Positions 402 through 34,502 of a stretch of DNA of 34,502 bases are shown here, one piece after another; the stretch's first letter is position 1; every line of letters begins with the position of its first letter. The DNA is from a virus, in the IMG/VR virus record IMGVR_UViG_3300017598_000208, positions 1 to 34,502 of that record; one strand, 5' to 3'. The position numbers and the translations under genes were made by a program. The notes below the pieces were generated by a model. That model searched no databases, was not told the origin of the DNA, and was given only the letters and a program-made list of their open reading frames with translations.

Positions 402-760
402 TATTCTTCCCACTCTATTTTGATTGTTGCCGTTGCTTCTTTATCTGTAATTTCCCTTGCCTCTTTCTCGGTTTCAAATATAAAACCGGCTGTCCGCCCT
501 GGATATATATTAATCCAGCCAGTACATTTGACCGGAGCCATGAATAGATCGACTGGACTTTCCCGTCCATAAGCCATCAATAAACATCCATTTAGATCAA
601 ATGTTATTGGATTAATGAAGGGCTCAGCAGCATCAACAACACCGACAATCACCTCTTTTTTATTATTTAGCCTAAACTTATGAAGTTGAGTCACTTCCCG
701 TCCGTCCCGCGTCACAACTTTAGCGCCGGCAAGCGCTTTTTCTAAATCAAACTCTTTCAT
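401..760 (-). CDS. Conserved phage protein of unknown function (119 aa)
   Basis: Begins MKEFDLEKALAGAKVVTRDG and continues with beta-rich sequence and a central segment DLFMAPVKCTGWINIY. I recognise this as a small protein that is widespread in phages of proteobacteria and usually lies among accessory or regulatory genes, but I know no function for it. There is no membrane segment and no cysteine cluster. Its ATG overlaps the TGA of the RepL-like gene (ATGA) and its TAA overlaps the start of the DUF3310-like gene, so it is translated in coupling with both. Confidence 0.75.
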   Translation of the reverse strand: MKEFDLEKALAGAKVVTRDGREVTQLHKFRLNNKKEVIVGVVDAAEPFINPITFDLNGCLLMAYGRESPVDLFMAPVKCTGWINIYPGRTAGFIFETEKEAREITDKEATATIKIEWEE

Positions 761-1152
761 ATTATTTCAACCTTTTCTATTTTTCCGCTTTTTGAATATT
801 CGGTAGTCCAAGTTATTTTTTGGACTCTTGACCAGTCTACTTTTACAGCATATTTTTTGTTTACCCTGTATTCGCCTTTAGCCATGCGTTCTATTAACTG
901 AGCTTTTACAAGGTGCTTTATATTATTGTTAAATGTCTGATTACATATTTCATTATCAGCAAGAAACCTGCGCTTTGTTGCTGTTCCGTAGCTGACTTCG
1001 TTAAATTCATTCATTTGTTTTATCATAAAGTTAAACATGCCAGCCTGAAGTCCAGACAGACCTTTTACTCGACAAAGTTCACCTATGTAAATTTTCACAA
1101 AACTTGGCTCCCTACTCTCTTCGCTTGTTTCTTCGTTAAAGTGCCTAGCCAT
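757..1152 (-). CDS. RepL-like winged-helix protein, candidate replication initiator
   Basis: A 131-residue protein. Residues about 15-70 (FVKIYIGELCRVKGLSGLQ onward, then MFNFMIKQMNEFNEVSYG) form helices followed by a helix-turn-helix (NQTFNNNIKHLVKAQLIERM). A beta-wing follows (GEYRVNKKY) and then VDWSRVQKI. Helix-turn-helix, LVxxxLIxR, GxYxxN and a trailing W is the pattern of RepL-type plasmid initiators; the assignment is by pattern only. It is the first gene of its operon and has a strong promoter directly upstream. Iteron-like repeats lie 60-390 bp beyond the start, the usual arrangement for a self-regulating initiator. It could instead be a transcription factor. Confidence 0.5.
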   Translation of the reverse strand: MARHFNEETSEESREPSFVKIYIGELCRVKGLSGLQAGMFNFMIKQMNEFNEVSYGTATKRRFLADNEICNQTFNNNIKHLVKAQLIERMAKGEYRVNKKYAVKVDWSRVQKITWTTEYSKSGKIEKVEII

Positions 1153-1186
1153 TGTTATACCCGTATTTAGTTATTTGGTGAATAAT

Positions 1187-1214
1187 ATTATACTCCGGTA
1201 ATATCTTTTATCAA
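1187..1214 (-). promoter_or_regulatory. Promoter of the rep operon
   Basis: On the minus strand: TTGATA at 1214-1209, a 16-bp spacer, then TATAAT at 1192-1187. Both hexamers are near or at the sigma70 consensus. The promoter lies 35 bases before the RepL-like start codon and is flanked by GTATAAC repeats at 1154-1160 (complement) and 1215-1221, consistent with autoregulation. Confidence 0.72.
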
Positions 1215-1287
1215 GTATAACGAAGTCTGTTTTTTTGAGTATAACCGTTTTCGCTTATACCGCCTACAAGTATAACAAGTGTTCTAT

Positions 1288-1350
1288 AGAGTGCTTATGT
1301 TGTGTTTGACAGAGTGATTGCTTATACCTGCTAGAGTGATAACAAGTGTC
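1288..1350 (+). repeat. Iteron-like array A (AGAGTG, 22-23 bp period)
   Basis: AGAGTG begins at 1288, 1311 and 1333, spaced 23 and 22 bp, about two helical turns. The unit at 1333 continues GTGATAACAAGTGTC, a near copy of GTATAACAAGTGTTC at 1270-1284, so the GTATAAC elements and the AGAGTG array share sequence. Confidence 0.5.
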
Positions 1351-1454
1351 TTGATGAGTTATAGTTTTTAACTGTAGGCCGCGCCAGTATTGGGCTGGTT
1401 CCTCTGTTTATCTTAAATCTATCTTATCCCTTAATCATTTCACTACTATCAGTA

Positions 1455-1540
1455 AAAAAGGTCGCGACACCGTAGTCCTATTATTTCGACTAATTTTCTC
1501 GTAATGGGCGCGACACCGCACTAAAAAGGTCGCGACACCG
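1455..1540 (+). repeat. Iteron-like array B (GTCGCGACACCG)
   Basis: The 18 bases AAAAAGGTCGCGACACCG occur exactly at 1455-1472 and 1523-1540. A third copy of the core, GCGCGACACCG, lies at 1508-1518. A degenerate CGAC at 1487 keeps the phase: CGAC starts at 1465, 1487, 1511 and 1533 (spacing 22, 24, 22). The core contains the palindrome GTCGCGAC. Confidence 0.6.
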
Positions 1541-1799: not shown

Positions 1800-1829
1800 A
1801 GGCACAAAAAAGCCCGCATAAAGCAGGCT
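1800..1829 (-). terminator. Rho-independent terminator of the left accessory operon
   Basis: Read leftward, AGCCTGC-TTTAT-GCGGGCT is followed by TTTTTTG: a 7-bp stem with one mismatch, a short loop and a U-run. It lies 35 bases after the stop of the Zn-ribbon gene. The same 30 bases recur exactly at 33265-33294. Confidence 0.85.
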
Positions 1830-6217: not shown

Positions 6218-6595
6218 ATGAGTACTTATACTGACAGAATGAAAAGAAAAATAGCATCTGAGGCCATGCAAGTTGCAGATAATGTTAATAAAGTATGCAA
6301 AAAATACCACGTCAGCCGCTTCCAGATTAACAAATGGTGTGAAAAGTTTGGCATTGATAAAGTTAGACGCGCCTCACCCTCAAGGCTGCTCGATCAAGAC
6401 AAAATGGTTGAACAGGTCAAGCAGATGATAAGCGATGGAATGCTTAGAAAAGATGCTATTAAAAAGCTTGGCATCACCAAAGGCACGTTTGATCGATGGC
6501 TAGACAATTACAACAAGAACATACTTGAAGCCGGGTATCGGTCGCCAAATTATCATCTTTGGAAGCCGACCAGCTTGAGCAATTCCTTGCATTAA
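6218..6595 (+). CDS. Helix-turn-helix DNA-binding protein, possibly frameshifted at the C-terminus
   Basis: 125 residues with two HTH-like units: residues about 15-47 (VNKVCKKYHVSRFQINKWCE) and about 66-100 (AIKKLGITKGTFDRWLDNYN). The pattern xxLGIxxxTFxRW resembles small phage or transposase-type HTH proteins. The last 20 residues (about 106-125) look unlike the rest. The adjacent frame is open from 6529 and reads VAKLSSLEADQLEQFLALTA, a more protein-like helix. The gene lies between SSB and the helicase, and a role in origin binding or regulation is inferred. Confidence 0.65.
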   Translation: MSTYTDRMKRKIASEAMQVADNVNKVCKKYHVSRFQINKWCEKFGIDKVRRASPSRLLDQDKMVEQVKQMISDGMLRKDAIKKLGITKGTFDRWLDNYNKNILEAGYRSPNYHLWKPTSLSNSLH

Positions 6596-6711
6596 CTGCT
6601 ATAATAATTGAGCGGATAGGGCTTAGCGGCTCGAAACCCAGCTTCAGTAACTGGCCCTCCGCTTCAATCAAAATCAAAATACTGATAACTCTATACTGGA
6701 GAGTTCCCCCG

Positions 6712-8196
6712 ATGATTTCTTTATACCCTGATCAAGAAGAATTTCTTCAAGAAATTAGACTTTTATGGCGTGATAACCTACGCATTGTTGGCGTTGCAAG
6801 TACTGGTTTCGGAAAAACTCGATGCGCTGCTCGAATAATTGAGGGCTGCGTTAGTAAGGGGATGAAAGTTTGTTTTATTGTTCCACGAATCTCACTTATC
6901 CAACAGACCGCAGACGCCTTCACCGATCTTGGCTTAACAGACATCACTTTTTTGTGGGCTGACTACCAAACAGATTATGACGCATCAATAACCATCGCCT
7001 CGGTTGACACTTATATTCGAAGAAAAAAGATGGAGTTTGATGTTGTAATAGTAGATGAGGTTCAGCATAAACGTAAAGTACTGCTTGAATGGATGAATGA
7101 TCACCCGAATGATAGATATTTAGGACTGACAGCAACAGCTTTCGCTCCTTGGATCGGATCATATTATACCGCTATGGCTAAATCCAAGCCTATGTGGTGG
7201 CTAATGGAAAATAAACGATTATCAAAATATGACGTTTTCGCACCATCACACCCTGACTTATCCAAAGCTAAAACAGTTAACACACCAAACGGCAAAGACT
7301 ATAAAGAAAGTGACCTGGCTGAAATCATGGGAACCGCTAAACTTGTTGGCGATGTCGTAGCAAACTGGCTAGAGCATGGTGAGAACCGTCTAACAATCGC
7401 TCTTTGTGTCAATGTTGCCCACGCTGGCCATTTGACTAATGAATTCAACAACGCTGGCATTAAAGCAGAATTAATATCTCACCATGTACCGATCACTGAC
7501 AGACTGGCAGTATTTAAGCGGGCTGAGGATGGTATCACAAAGGTAATACTATCCGTAGATTGTCTAACAGAAGGGTTTGACATGCCTGAAGCGTCTTGTC
7601 TAATCAATGCCAGACCAACCAAGAGTAAAACGCGATTTATTCAAGGAATCGGAAGAATACTGCGTTATGTTGAAGGCAAGCGTGCGATCATTTTTGACCA
7701 TGCTTGTTCGTTTCTCAACCCTGAGCTCGGATTTGTTGAATACATTGAAACCGATGATTTATGTTCAGACAGCGATGGACTTGACGAAGTATCAGTAAAG
7801 CGAAAAGAAAAAGAGCAGAAAGAAAAGCTTCCTGTCGAGTGTAAAAAATGCAATTACCTGAAACCGCCAGGTATGCTGATTTGTGCCCAGTGTGGCCATA
7901 AACCGATTGCTGGCGAAAATGTAGAAATTGACGAAAGCCGACAGTTAACGCAGATAACCAAATCCAAGCCTACCAAAATAGACAAGCAAGATTTTTGGTC
8001 AGAATTAAAGTCGTACCAGTCACACCGGCAGATTTTAGGCAGGCCAATATCAGATGGTGCGCTTGCACATATCTACAAATCTAAGTTCTTAGTTTGGCCA
8101 AGGTCAATGAAAAATACGAGAAAGCAGCCTACACTTGACACGATGAATTATATCAAATCAAGACAAATAGCTTATTCTAAGAGTCGACGCACATGA
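6712..8196 (+). CDS. SF2 DEAD/DEAH-type helicase with C-terminal zinc finger
   Basis: 494 residues. Motif I is STGFGKT (residues 30-36), motif II is DEVQ (115-118, in VIVDEVQH), motif III is TAT in LGLTATAF, and motif VI is the QGIGRILR region. The C-terminal portion contains CKKC and CAQC, probably a zinc ribbon. This is the common phage DEAD-like helicase placed before a primase, and it would unwind the template using ATP. I chose the ATG at 6712, which has GGAGAG at 6698-6703. The frame is open upstream to 6529, but those residues do not belong to the helicase fold. The end overlaps the primase start (ATGA). Confidence 0.92.
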   Translation: MISLYPDQEEFLQEIRLLWRDNLRIVGVASTGFGKTRCAARIIEGCVSKGMKVCFIVPRISLIQQTADAFTDLGLTDITFLWADYQTDYDASITIASVDTYIRRKKMEFDVVIVDEVQHKRKVLLEWMNDHPNDRYLGLTATAFAPWIGSYYTAMAKSKPMWWLMENKRLSKYDVFAPSHPDLSKAKTVNTPNGKDYKESDLAEIMGTAKLVGDVVANWLEHGENRLTIALCVNVAHAGHLTNEFNNAGIKAELISHHVPITDRLAVFKRAEDGITKVILSVDCLTEGFDMPEASCLINARPTKSKTRFIQGIGRILRYVEGKRAIIFDHACSFLNPELGFVEYIETDDLCSDSDGLDEVSVKRKEKEQKEKLPVECKKCNYLKPPGMLICAQCGHKPIAGENVEIDESRQLTQITKSKPTKIDKQDFWSELKSYQSHRQILGRPISDGALAHIYKSKFLVWPRSMKNTRKQPTLDTMNYIKSRQIAYSKSRRT

Positions 8197-9116
8197 AAAC
8201 AGTAGACATAATAAAAAATCATATCCCTGCCGTTTTATCAGCCTATGGCCTGCCACCAATAACAGGAGGCCGTCACTATCCAGGTGAATGCCCTTTATGC
8301 TCAAGCAAGAAAAGCTTCAGAATAGACAATAAGGAGAATACTGGTTCATGGATATGCAAGTGCGGTTCCGGTGACATCTGGAAGTTGCTAATAGAATTCA
8401 CTGGTAAAGAGTTCCGAACCCTGGCTGCTGAGATCGATCAATTACTGGGCAATACTTACTCTAGAGAACCTATTAATCCCAGAATAGACTATCAAGGGCG
8501 CTTGCTGCGGTACTGGAAAACATTGACACAGGTCAAGGATACCGATGTTCAGGCATATTTACGCGGGCGGGGCATTTATCGCATCCCGCTCAGGGCAATG
8601 AAGTCATTTATCGGAAATATCAGCGAAATGGTTTGCGTAGCTACCAATGATTTAGGCCAGCCAATTATGTTACACCAGACATTTTTGAACGGTGATAAAA
8701 AAGCAGATATTCGAGTTCAGAAAAAAATGACTAGAATCGAGCAGGATCGCAAAGACGAACCGATTTATGATTCGATAGCTATACGTTTATTCGAGTCGCA
8801 AACCTGTTTAGGGATAGCTGAGGGCATAGAAACGGCATTAAGCGCCCACCAGCTCTATGAGTGCGCCACATGGTCTGTTATGAACAGCGGATTCATGAAA
8901 AAGTTTGTTGCGCCTGTCGGTGTTGAACACCTAATCATATTCGCTGACTCTGATAGAAATGGCACCGGTATGGCCGCAGCGTTTCATTGTGGGAATAGAA
9001 ATATTTTGAATAAAAACGACGTAGCCAGGGTGACTATACGCTACCCGGAAAAGGGCGACTTTAACGACGTACTGTTATGCGCTCAGACAGTTGGAGAATT
9101 CAAGCTAACAAAATGA
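8193..9116 (+). CDS. DNA primase with zinc ribbon and Toprim domain
   Basis: 307 residues. An N-terminal zinc ribbon uses C33, C36, C55 and C57 (ECPLCSSKK and WICKCG). The C-terminal Toprim domain has AEGIETAL (209-216), with the catalytic glutamate, and the acidic FADSD (250-254) followed by RNGTG. This is the phage P4-like/Toprim_3 primase architecture without a fused helicase. It would make RNA primers for replication, working with the SF2 helicase encoded just upstream. No replicative polymerase is encoded, so a host polymerase is presumed. The ATG overlaps the helicase stop. Confidence 0.92.
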   Translation: MKTVDIIKNHIPAVLSAYGLPPITGGRHYPGECPLCSSKKSFRIDNKENTGSWICKCGSGDIWKLLIEFTGKEFRTLAAEIDQLLGNTYSREPINPRIDYQGRLLRYWKTLTQVKDTDVQAYLRGRGIYRIPLRAMKSFIGNISEMVCVATNDLGQPIMLHQTFLNGDKKADIRVQKKMTRIEQDRKDEPIYDSIAIRLFESQTCLGIAEGIETALSAHQLYECATWSVMNSGFMKKFVAPVGVEHLIIFADSDRNGTGMAAAFHCGNRNILNKNDVARVTIRYPEKGDFNDVLLCAQTVGEFKLTK

Positions 9117-31825: not shown

Positions 31826-32481
31826 ATCAACTCCTTTACCTTCGCGTAGGTTTCTTTGTCAGTCATCACACTAGTAAATCCTTCAACCAACACGGCTATC
31901 TTAGACTCCATTGCCTGCACCTCCTCAAGTTCAACACTTGTTAGATGGTTCCTAATATTATCAGTCGTTTTCAGCCCACGATCCTCCTTAATCTTCTTTA
32001 CAGTCGAGCCAAGTACCTTTTTGTAAACGAGTTTCGTATAATTCCCGAAAGCAAACCGCTTGTGATTTGTGTTGTCTTGAAGATTTTGATTTATTGAGTC
32101 GGTTAGCGAATGCCTTACCATTTTACCGATTGACCTAGTTTCTGATCGCGCGAAAAGTTCATGCTCCATAAAATTGAATTGTTTTATGAAAGCAACTTTT
32201 ATCAAATTGGCTTTTTTACCGTTGAAGCTCATAACTATAAACATGAACTGATCACGGTCTAAAAGGTATTCTTGATAAGTCTTACCTCTTGAATCAGTGT
32301 AATCTCGCTGCGTAACTTTACGCACCGAAAAAAACTCAACACTATCATTTCTTATAAATGAGTTAACAACTCTAACCACATCAGAATGACGCTTATTAAA
32401 TTCTTTAGCGATTATTCGAGTTGATGCGACTGGTGTGGCTTTTGAAATATCTTGGGTGGTTAATTGTACGAGGGTATTCAT
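31822..32481 (-). CDS. rha: Rha-family phage regulatory protein
   Basis: 219 residues. The N-terminal segment (STRIIAKEFNKRHSDVVRVV) and the continuation (KVTQRDYTDSRGKTYQEYLL, DRDQFMFIVMSFNGKKANLI) are the Rha domain. That domain occurs in lambdoid and temperate phages and alters growth in hosts lacking IHF. The C-terminal half (about 120-219) is helical, basic and unassigned (HKRFAFGNYTKLVYKKVLGS). It is the first gene of the leftward late strand, behind a promoter that overlaps a perfect inverted repeat. Confidence 0.85.
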   Translation of the reverse strand: MNTLVQLTTQDISKATPVASTRIIAKEFNKRHSDVVRVVNSFIRNDSVEFFSVRKVTQRDYTDSRGKTYQEYLLDRDQFMFIVMSFNGKKANLIKVAFIKQFNFMEHELFARSETRSIGKMVRHSLTDSINQNLQDNTNHKRFAFGNYTKLVYKKVLGSTVKKIKEDRGLKTTDNIRNHLTSVELEEVQAMESKIAVLVEGFTSVMTDKETYAKVKELI

Positions 32482-32553
32482 AACTAAGGCTCATTTTAGT
32501 GGGTTTGTGTTGGTACTTGCCGGCAATGAGTAACCGGCGTTCGCAACAACTAC

Positions 32554-32604
32554 AGTATAGCACAATATTAAAGGGTTGCTCAATTAAGAACAACCCTTTA
32601 ATAT
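32554..32604 (-). promoter_or_regulatory. rha promoter within a perfect inverted repeat
   Basis: ATATTAAAGGGTTG (32565-32578) and CAACCCTTTAATAT (32591-32604) are perfect complements separated by 12 bases. Between and beside them, on the minus strand, TTGAGC, 18 bp and the extended -10 TGCTATACT (TATACT = 32559-32554) make a promoter for rha. One arm of the repeat fills the spacer, so a dimer bound there would block it. The stem has no U-run and is unlikely to be a terminator. Confidence 0.6.
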
Positions 32605-33245
32605 GGGGATATTGCCGATGGCTTGCAGGCCACGGGAACAGATACACATGAATACCATCACCGCTTCGGCATGACGCAATTCTATCAAATCTGTTTCTAC
32701 CCTTGCAAGCTTTCGTTTAGATAGTACGGTTTCACCATGCCCCAACTTGGGCTGATTACTGGCAAGTGTCATAGAAGAGGGTACTGACCTGCCCCGCCAG
32801 CATCAGTAAGTGGACACAGGTTCAATATTGGACGCTGGTCGCCCTTGGGATTCCATGTAGAGTACGGACCGTTGAGATTGGATAGACGCCTCTTCAATCC
32901 AGAATGCTGAGAGCAAGTGTAGGTTATAGGATCTGTAAAGTCCTTGCGCTGGCACCAAGTTTTAAAGTGCCTTCACTCAGTTGTTATAAGACTATCGAAT
33001 ACAGCGCCTTTCCATTTTTTCACCTTAGTTGAGTCTTAGTGTACTCAAGATTTTATGGTATGTGATTGATTGACAAACTACCCTATTAAGTTAAAAAAGC
33101 ACTGTTCCAAATGAATGTTTAGCGTTAACCGTTCCTCCTCATGTTTACTGCTAAATACTCGCATCGCCACTATACCAAGCCAGCCTAATACCTCTTTGGT
33201 AAAGTTTCTTTACACTACCTGCCGATAATATAGTTACTAACAGCC

Positions 33246-33254
33246 TGTGGATAA
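33246..33254 (-). promoter_or_regulatory. DnaA box
   Basis: TGTGGATAA is the complement of TTATCCACA, an exact match to the strong DnaA-binding consensus. It is a single copy in this non-coding stretch, 11 bases before the terminator, so a chance match is possible. Confidence 0.4.
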
Positions 33255-33264
33255 CTCAAATAGT

Positions 33265-33294
33265 AGGCACAAAAAAGCCCGCATAAAGCAGGCT
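33265..33294 (-). terminator. Terminator of the rep operon (exact copy of 1800-1829)
   Basis: The same 30-base block as at 1800-1829, read leftward AGCCTGC-TTTAT-GCGGGCT-TTTTTTG. It follows the ParB-like gene by 57 bases and ends the operon that begins with the RepL-like gene and crosses the contig junction. Confidence 0.85.
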
Positions 33295-33351
33295 AAAATT
33301 TGAAGTAACACACCATGAGCGGCTAGTGTATCACGAATTTATTATTGCCGA

Positions 33352-34122
33352 TTAAATAACTGGGAATCTCTCATTTCCAAAACTAAAAAATATTCTTTTT
33401 ATTTCCCTGGACTCAATGAAAGCCCGATAAGATTTTATAGTTACAGCAGCGCCTTCAGTTTTAGCCCTGGCATAGTTGGTGCCTTTTCGAGCCTCCCACT
33501 CATACAGCCTTTTAACTGGACAGTTCATACTATCAAACAGGCCGTCATTGTACTTTTTGATAAATCGATTAACGCCGTCTACATCTTTTCCCGATAAAAT
33601 ATAAAGTGCTGCGACTTGATGCGTTTTATATTTCAATGTTACTGCCACAAACTCCTCTAAATCCCTATTATCTACAACAAACTTCAGGACTTCATTATTT
33701 GAAAATCTGCGCCGGGTGCAAAACTTAAAATCACCATCGTTATGATTAAATTCGTTCAATTCTAAAATCATTCTAGCTATAGCGGTTAACCTGTTTGAGT
33801 TTCTATTGCCATTCATAGCTATGATGTCATTAGCTGTCCTCAGACGCCCTGTGTCAATCGTTGCAAAAGCCAGGTCTGACTGCACCCCTTCAACTTTTTC
33901 TGTCTCGAACGGAACGCCTGAAGCCACACAAGCCATTAATCTATGCTGACCATCCAGTAACACGCCGTTTGCGCCAATCACTATCGACTGACCATTATAG
34001 ATCCATTCGCCCTCTTTCATTTGTCTTGCTAAAAAATCTACATGTTTATAATTTACTTTTCTATTATCAGTATTTCGACTTAATATAGATTTTGCTTCAG
34101 TTGGTGTGATTAAAAATTTCAT
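33352..34122 (-). CDS. ParB/Srx-fold phage protein
   Basis: 256 residues. The N-terminus (MKFLITPTEAKSILSRNTDN) leads to a domain with GEWIYNGQSIVIGANGVLLD and the signature DGQHRL at 57-62, continuing ACVASGVPFETEKVEGV. GQHRL-type sequences mark the ParB N-terminal/sulfiredoxin fold, where the conserved Gly-Gln-His-Arg region binds nucleotide. Related phage proteins have no established role; some ParB-fold enzymes hydrolyse CTP. The rest of the chain is helical. No ParA gene is present, so a true partition role is not supported. AAAGGT lies seven bases before the ATG. Confidence 0.7.
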   Translation of the reverse strand: MKFLITPTEAKSILSRNTDNRKVNYKHVDFLARQMKEGEWIYNGQSIVIGANGVLLDGQHRLMACVASGVPFETEKVEGVQSDLAFATIDTGRLRTANDIIAMNGNRNSNRLTAIARMILELNEFNHNDGDFKFCTRRRFSNNEVLKFVVDNRDLEEFVAVTLKYKTHQVAALYILSGKDVDGVNRFIKKYNDGLFDSMNCPVKRLYEWEARKGTNYARAKTEGAAVTIKSYRAFIESREIKRIFFSFGNERFPVI

Positions 34123-34312: not shown

Positions 34313-34502
34313 TTATTTAAAGTTGATAAACGCGAAAACTTCCAGCCACTTTTCCCGGTCAATATTATGACCTAGCGTCCTTACTATTCGATTTTCTTCT
34401 CTGTCCCTGTCATCCGATGTTATGGCGTCTCTCAAATTGCGTAAAATTACGCCTTTTGCCTGTGCTGGTATATTGCCCCACTCTTTTATAATCTCATCAC
34501 AA
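34313..34502 (-). CDS. Small conserved phage protein, C-terminal part (crosses the contig ends)
   Basis: This is the continuation of the frame that starts at 72. Counting the shared 10 bases once, it reads through FCDEIIKEWGNIPAQAKGVI, then LRNLRDAITSDDRDREENRI and ends EKWLEVFAFINFK at TAA (34315-34313). The pattern W-x-x-I-P-x-x-A-K-x-V-I-x-R-x-L and the following acidic helix fit the small phage family named for the other half. The uninterrupted frame across the junction is the evidence that the contig closes on itself. It is 29 bases upstream of the next gene. Confidence 0.75.
   Translation of the reverse strand, partial: CDEIIKEWGNIPAQAKGVILRNLRDAITSDDRDREENRIVRTLGHNIDREKWLEVFAFINFK

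Follow-up and report, generated by a model that had tools for sequence, protein, structure and literature searches.

Small HTH initiators of the RepL family (PF05732) are carried by pSN2-type plasmids and by small enterobacterial plasmids. A review of staphylococcal replicons places the RepL/pSN2 plasmids among the rolling-circle replicons, with dso and ssoA (PMC5703833), and the control of pSN2 plasmid copy number has been reported as unknown. Among phages, the nearest RepL carriers are recorded as isolated phages, in which a helicase-primase operon follows repL immediately or nearly so. One of these is HS5, and the HS1/HS5 genus has been described as likely integration-capable owing to ERF and a Cro/C1 repressor (PMC5498523; strain names and genome sizes in that paper differ somewhat from those of the GenBank HS1 and HS5 records used here).

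We compared these systems with a viral stretch of 34,502 nucleotides (IMG/VR record IMGVR_UViG_3300017598_000208), which as a whole is called the window below. In our reading, to which we give a probability of roughly three in four (0.74), positions 757-1341 form a RepL-type replicon, that is, an autoregulated, RepL-driven origin for lytic replication that works with the helicase and primase of the phage. Because this plasmid-type cassette is common to marine phages and to plasmids of 1-3 kb, it probably marks where the virus starts copying its DNA.

The repL gene and its family

757..1152, minus strand: repL, gene for a RepL-type initiator of 131 amino acids (Pfam RepL match, homology to phage and plasmid RepL)

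The first-pass annotation had proposed a RepL-like initiator here, and an HMM search bore this out: residues 9-110 match Pfam RepL (PF05732) with an E-value of 3.9e-6 and 26.9 bits, above the cut-off of 20.3. The predicted recognition region reads ..CNQTFNNNI... The protein is 57-58% identical to the RepL proteins of Vibrio phages 1.148.O and 1.115(.A) and of Pseudoalteromonas phage HS5, 57% to a homologue on one IMG/VR contig, 54-56% to those of Arsenophonus phage-like plasmids, 55% to those on contigs of Enterovibrio and Photobacterium carnosum (3.06-3.13 kb), and 52% to those of E. coli plasmids of 2.2-2.3 kb. The Enterovibrio and P. carnosum contigs are probably circular plasmids, since their ends overlap by 55 and 127 bp. 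A PDB sequence search with the RepL protein found no significant relative, and an AlphaFold model built from two sequences was set aside (pLDDT 37).

Annotation and ORF lists show RepL as the only evident Rep in the 2.19-kb E. coli, 2.37-kb Arsenophonus and ~3-kb Photobacterium/Enterovibrio replicons. RepL is very likely a true initiator, because it is the sole annotated gene of the 2188-bp E. coli plasmid and because a scan of the small E. coli and Arsenophonus plasmids gave no hit above threshold to a curated RNA family (e.g. ColE1 RNAI). The phage-like plasmid paNv_CH10 of Arsenophonus (L011 16628-20399) carries four tandem RepL genes of three types, and it also bears separate Rep genes.

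Promoter and repeat arrays upstream of repL

1154..1167, strand not assigned: inverted copy of the RepL half-site by the repL start, GTTATACCCGTATT (inverted repeat with 1265-1278)
1182..1202, minus strand: RepL site across the -10 box, candidate operator, ATTACCGGAGTATAATATTAT (relatives-only motif)
1187..1214, minus strand: repL promoter, TTGATA-N16-TATAAT (11/12 consensus matches)
1195..1220, minus strand: array 1 unit TTATACTTGATAAAAGATATTACCGG, half-site over the -35 box (AGTATAAC at 1214)
1221..1244, minus strand: array 1 unit TTATACTCAAAAAAACAGACTTCG (AGTATAAC at 1238)
1253..1274, minus strand: array 1 unit TTATACTTGTAGGCGGTATAAG, best match to relatives (motif; 80% repeat of 30 nt with 1320-1349)
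1275..1297, minus strand: array 1 unit ATAAGCACTCTATAGAACACTTG, with the CTATAGAGT core also seen in HS5 and the Vibrio phages (sequence)
1298..1319, minus strand: array 1 unit CAATCACTCTGTCAAACACAAC, AATCACT in common with Photobacterium plasmid iterons
1320..1341, minus strand: array 1 unit TTATCACTCTAGCAGGTATAAG (repeat, motif and sequence comparison)
1811..1829, minus strand: terminator-like hairpin between the origin region and the minus-strand operon upstream

The strong promoter noted earlier at 1187-1214 is present, with 16 bp between TTGATA and TATAAT. Also present are the GTATAAC and AGAGTG sites; they had been taken for separate elements, but their sequences mark them as two versions of one half-site within a single array (1195-1341) made up of ~22-bp units. 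In the orientation of repL, the units run TTATCACTCTAGCAGGTATAAG / CAATCACTCTGTCAAACACAAC / ATAAGCACTCTATAGAACACTTG / TTATACTTGTAGGCGGTATAAG, followed by TTATACTCAAAAAAACAGACTTCG / TTATACTTGATAAAAGATATTACCGG across the promoter. AGAGTG lies at 1288, 1311 and 1333 (7 occurrences in the whole 34.5 kb), and AGTATAAC is found at 1214, 1238 and 1269 only. Array 1 is more degenerate than its counterparts in relatives, with just one unit showing both half-sites clearly. The terminator hairpin, taken as 1800-1829 (GCACAAAAAAGCCCGCATAAAGCAGGCT..), has an exact 30-bp duplicate at 33265-33294, both copies being intergenic and on the same strand.

Two measures set the array apart from chance. We counted pairs of 8-mers at a lag of 20-24 bp in the 170 bp upstream of repL and obtained 10; shuffles averaged 0.45 and never exceeded 4. 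A count of 10 was reached by 6 of 1175 control segments and by 7 of 603 control segments of 330 bp. A RepL site motif was also built from ten sites in four relatives, the window being excluded. Of 3427 sliding segments of the genome, 1150-1389 scores highest, and none of 2000 shuffles reached its score; among single matches in the genome, TATACCGCCTACAAGTATAAC at 1256-1276 comes second and the site across the -10 box 8th. Relatives likewise carry TACCG sites at -83 to -39 from repL. Direct DNA comparison of the origin region with phages and plasmids gave nothing informative. Close to array 1, DnaA boxes occur only with one mismatch (1177 and 1236, among 33 such sites genome-wide), and the AT content is 55-73%, with no distinctly AT-rich unwinding element.

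We suggest that RepL would bind this phased array just upstream of its own gene and open the DNA there, passing the origin to the SF2 helicase and the primase of the phage for lytic genome replication. At the sites over the -35 and -10 boxes it may, like the initiators of iteron plasmids, repress transcription of its own gene.

An array inside a promoter could be an operator only. RepL would then be mainly a transcription regulator and the array a multi-site operator for repL and the operon, with the origin elsewhere, for example at 32482-33351. The overlap between sites and promoter is consistent with this, as are the generic HTH similarity that Pfam also finds in RepL relatives and an exact DnaA box, TTATCCACA, at 33246. 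However, RepL is the only evident replication gene of tiny plasmids, array 1 runs ~130 bp past the promoter at nearly constant phase, and there are no direct repeats in 32450-33400; we regard a mainly regulatory role as distinctly unlikely. The region 32482-33351 itself (~870 bp) has no convincing gene, contains a 25-bp inverted repeat at 32557-32612, and yielded neither direct repeats nor an RNA family; its DnaA box is one of two exact copies genome-wide. The initiator-driven origin of the first-pass annotation thus has the support of these results, and no pointer to replication elsewhere was found.

The RepL-driven origin also has counterparts in other replicons. Repeats precede repL in HS5 (ATACTCTATAGCGGT, period 21 bp), the Vibrio phages (TACCGCTATAGAGTATT), an E. 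coli plasmid (TACCGCTCAGCGGTA, period 22 bp), Arsenophonus (TACCGCTGAGCGGTT, period 22 bp), Photobacterium (TCACTATATGGTGAGTT, period ~22 bp) and the IMG/VR phage contig L195 (CTACCTGAGCGCGTGA). Measured from the start of repL, these arrays occupy roughly -210 to -80, with the 21-22 bp sites of the small plasmids and RepL phages at roughly -210 to -100; the location matches that in the window, and the layout recurs in most of the relatives examined, including distant ones (~30% identity). Compared with the 10 phased pairs of the window, HS5 has 30, L006 39, E. coli 31, Arsenophonus paPv18 39 and Photobacterium 47, and no shuffle equals these values; counts within or near chance came from Vibrio 1.148 (5), Vibrio 1.115 (2) and Arsenophonus paPv6 (8). 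The last of these has the recognition region SLAAFNNNI in place of NQTFNNNI and has no TACCG sites. Phased direct repeats beside rep that are common to relatives of the cognate Rep, a feature of iteron replicons, are thus found in array 1, and the iteron-plasmid layout recognised earlier is upheld by the comparison with relatives.

Among other RepL types and distant RepL plasmids, repeats of 20-24 bp period stand upstream in 9 of 11 further replicons; the replicons compared, closer relatives included, are partly non-independent of one another. Phased-pair counts of 11-77, above all shuffles, were obtained for E. coli MOBV (2.44 kb), Priestia, Moritella, Selenomonas, Vibrio 1.233 and the pSN2-type replicons of S. 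capitis and S. haemolyticus. The same count found nothing in the gene bodies of these replicons, and it was negative upstream of the Proteus and HS1 RepL loci. Exact or near-exact 22-bp tandem repeats precede distant repL genes on E. coli, Priestia and Staphylococcus plasmids (L212 161-270, L214 945-1054, L213 899-986, L215 594-637).

RepL might instead be a rolling-circle initiator, as for staphylococcal pSN2, with the 22-bp repeats serving as recruitment sites by a nick site. The published classification of the RepL/pSN2 plasmids, with dso and ssoA, speaks for this. Yet direct repeats of 22 bp, widespread ahead of repL genes, are the hallmark of theta/iteron origins, the phage encodes its own primase and helicase, and an unsystematic look recognised no nick site, so that a rolling-circle mode appears unlikely to us. 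We tentatively put forward, as a conjecture with somewhat less than even odds, that all RepL proteins of phages and plasmids, in Gram-negative and Gram-positive hosts alike, are iteron-type initiators of ~22-bp upstream arrays and not rolling-circle initiators, that the site tracks the recognition helix (QTFNNN with TACCG), and that phages and plasmids trade gene and array as a cassette.

A second array lies farther from repL:

1455..1472, plus strand: array 2 copy 1, AAAAAGGTCGCGACACCG (exact 18-mer)
1501..1518, plus strand: array 2 copy 2, GTAATGGGCGCGACACCG (78% copy of AAAAAGGTCGCGACACCG)
1523..1540, plus strand: array 2 copy 3, identical to copy 1 (exact 18-mer)

Array 2 (GTCGCGACACCG units, 1455-1540) is a genuine repeat: the exact 18-mer occurs at 1455 and 1523, two matches were seen in none of 100 shuffles, and GTCGCGAC is found at 1461 and 1529 only. 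Four CGAC units had been listed. Those at 1465, 1511 and 1533 stand, but the one at 1487 has no more than four bases in common with the others, so the array has three real copies. Their proposed role as RepL iterons is not supported, the array being absent from every RepL relative examined and showing no match to the RepL site model. In other viral contigs, its 16-mer turned up 12 times, always as a single copy and never in an array, and GCGACACCG pairs showed no informative pattern among the matches listed. A hairpin was considered and is weak (z of -2.0 and -1.4). Possible explanations of array 2 are a site used by some other protein of the phage and the relic of an exchanged cassette.

Cassette exchange, replisome genes and lifestyle

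Two pairs of closely related phages differ at repL. In the first pair, HS5 and HS1, the aligned identity is 96% as far as HS5 position 8856 and 98% once more from 10037; between these points HS5 carries a GIY-YIG gene along with repL and the TACCG array, whereas HS1 has a different RepL-family gene and no TACCG array. In the second pair, Vibrio 1.148 and 1.233, it is 96% as far as 11741 and 95% from 12408 onward, and between these flanks 1.233 holds a third RepL-family gene with ACGACAGAACCTGTCGC repeats. Judging by these alignments, repL and its upstream DNA are exchanged jointly as one cassette, while the adjoining helicase-primase operon stays. The swapped cassettes are ready natural experiments.

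6559..8196, plus strand: SF2 (ResIII/DEAD) helicase, likely RepL partner; true start probably near 6680
8193..9116, plus strand: zinc-ribbon/Toprim primase, likely RepL partner; same family in HS5 and the Vibrio phages

The helicase is 44-47% identical to the one following repL in HS5 and the Vibrio phages. Both genes belong to a recombination/replication block with an annealing/exonuclease-family protein, a Gam-like protein and NinG, and the genome also encodes a portal of P22-like type. No RepL was found in the structural (terminase) relatives of the phage, nor were the helicase and primase, in searches run without a positive control; the module is therefore mosaic there. Enterobacterial phages with the same helicase-primase were tried as further relatives and rejected, their upstream genes not being RepL and showing no direct repeats; in such phages (L209 2464-2961, L210 2645-3022) an unrelated small protein occupies the place of repL.

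The first and last 10 bp of the record are identical (CTCATCACAA, at 1-10 and 34493-34502), and collapsing the overlap closes an ORF in frame (..RYWCGRQTISVHSFCDEIIKEWGNIPAQ..). Overlaps of at least 10 bp between unlinked 60-bp segments of the same genome arose once in 198,501 trials. Because the overlap joins an ORF in frame and chance overlap is rare, the contig, though listed as linear, is probably a complete circular genome of 34,492 bp; the overlap also fits terminal redundancy.

No tyrosine integrase or serine resolvase was detected in the genome, which bears out the earlier remark that an integrase is absent and extends it to resolvases. Searches for a ParA-type ATPase (AAA_31 model) and a Rep_3 domain (PF01051) gave no match either. 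Persistence as a plasmid, which had been raised because no integrase was visible, is possible but unsupported in view of these four negative results. In its full form this alternative has the cassette keep the phage as a low-copy plasmid prophage. The missing integrase and resolvase in a contig that looks circularly complete, a Rha regulator gene, and the same RepL type on Arsenophonus plasmids bearing phage genes are in its favour; however, the genome has neither a ParA-type nor a Rep_3 gene, those Arsenophonus plasmids have separate Rep genes in addition to RepL, and HS5 and Vibrio 1.148/1.115, recorded as isolated phages, have repL at the head of the helicase-primase operon. We think it very unlikely. 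A ParB-like domain protein (33352-34122, phrog_5931) weakly matches a ParB-like partition family and has no ParA partner.

Comparison with known replicons

The locus appears to pair an initiator of known family, placed in a phage setting, with an undescribed origin layout, because its protein is a PF05732 member, the literature calls this family rolling-circle, and our open-access searches found no description of RepL iterons. Sequence alone points to the replication origin of a marine phage group and relates it to plasmid replicons of minimal size (1-3 kb), and the widespread 22-bp arrays make an iteron mechanism for RepL replicons testable. If the family-wide arrays are truly iterons, the rolling-circle placement of RepL plasmids needs testing, and the arrays would be an obvious candidate for the copy-number control of pSN2 plasmids.

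The window has in common with the pSN2-type and small enterobacterial plasmids a small HTH initiator from one Pfam family. In those plasmids of 1.3-3 kb, most of which share the upstream repeats, RepL is the sole evident replication gene, whereas here repL sits in a phage of ~34.5 kb with its own primase and helicase. The P1 lytic replicon has in common with it the name RepL and a proposed role in lytic replication; P1 RepL (281 aa), unlike the window protein, has no PF05732 match and was rejected as a homologue, and the P1 origin is placed inside the gene (PMC9948254). Iteron plasmids of the Rep_3 type (P1 RepA, pPS10, R6K, and pSK639 with five 22-bp repeats) likewise have 22-bp tandem repeats upstream of rep and sites within the rep promoter, but RepL is not a Rep_3 protein and the window has no clear DnaA box. 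Among phages, HS5 and Vibrio 1.148.O and 1.115.A come closest, with TACCG..AGTAT sites in the same upstream region and the same helicase and primase families. In these phages repL precedes helicase and primase on one strand, whereas in the window it lies on the opposite strand, ~5 kb away; the window also differs from them in its more degenerate array and in the second, unrelated array beside it.
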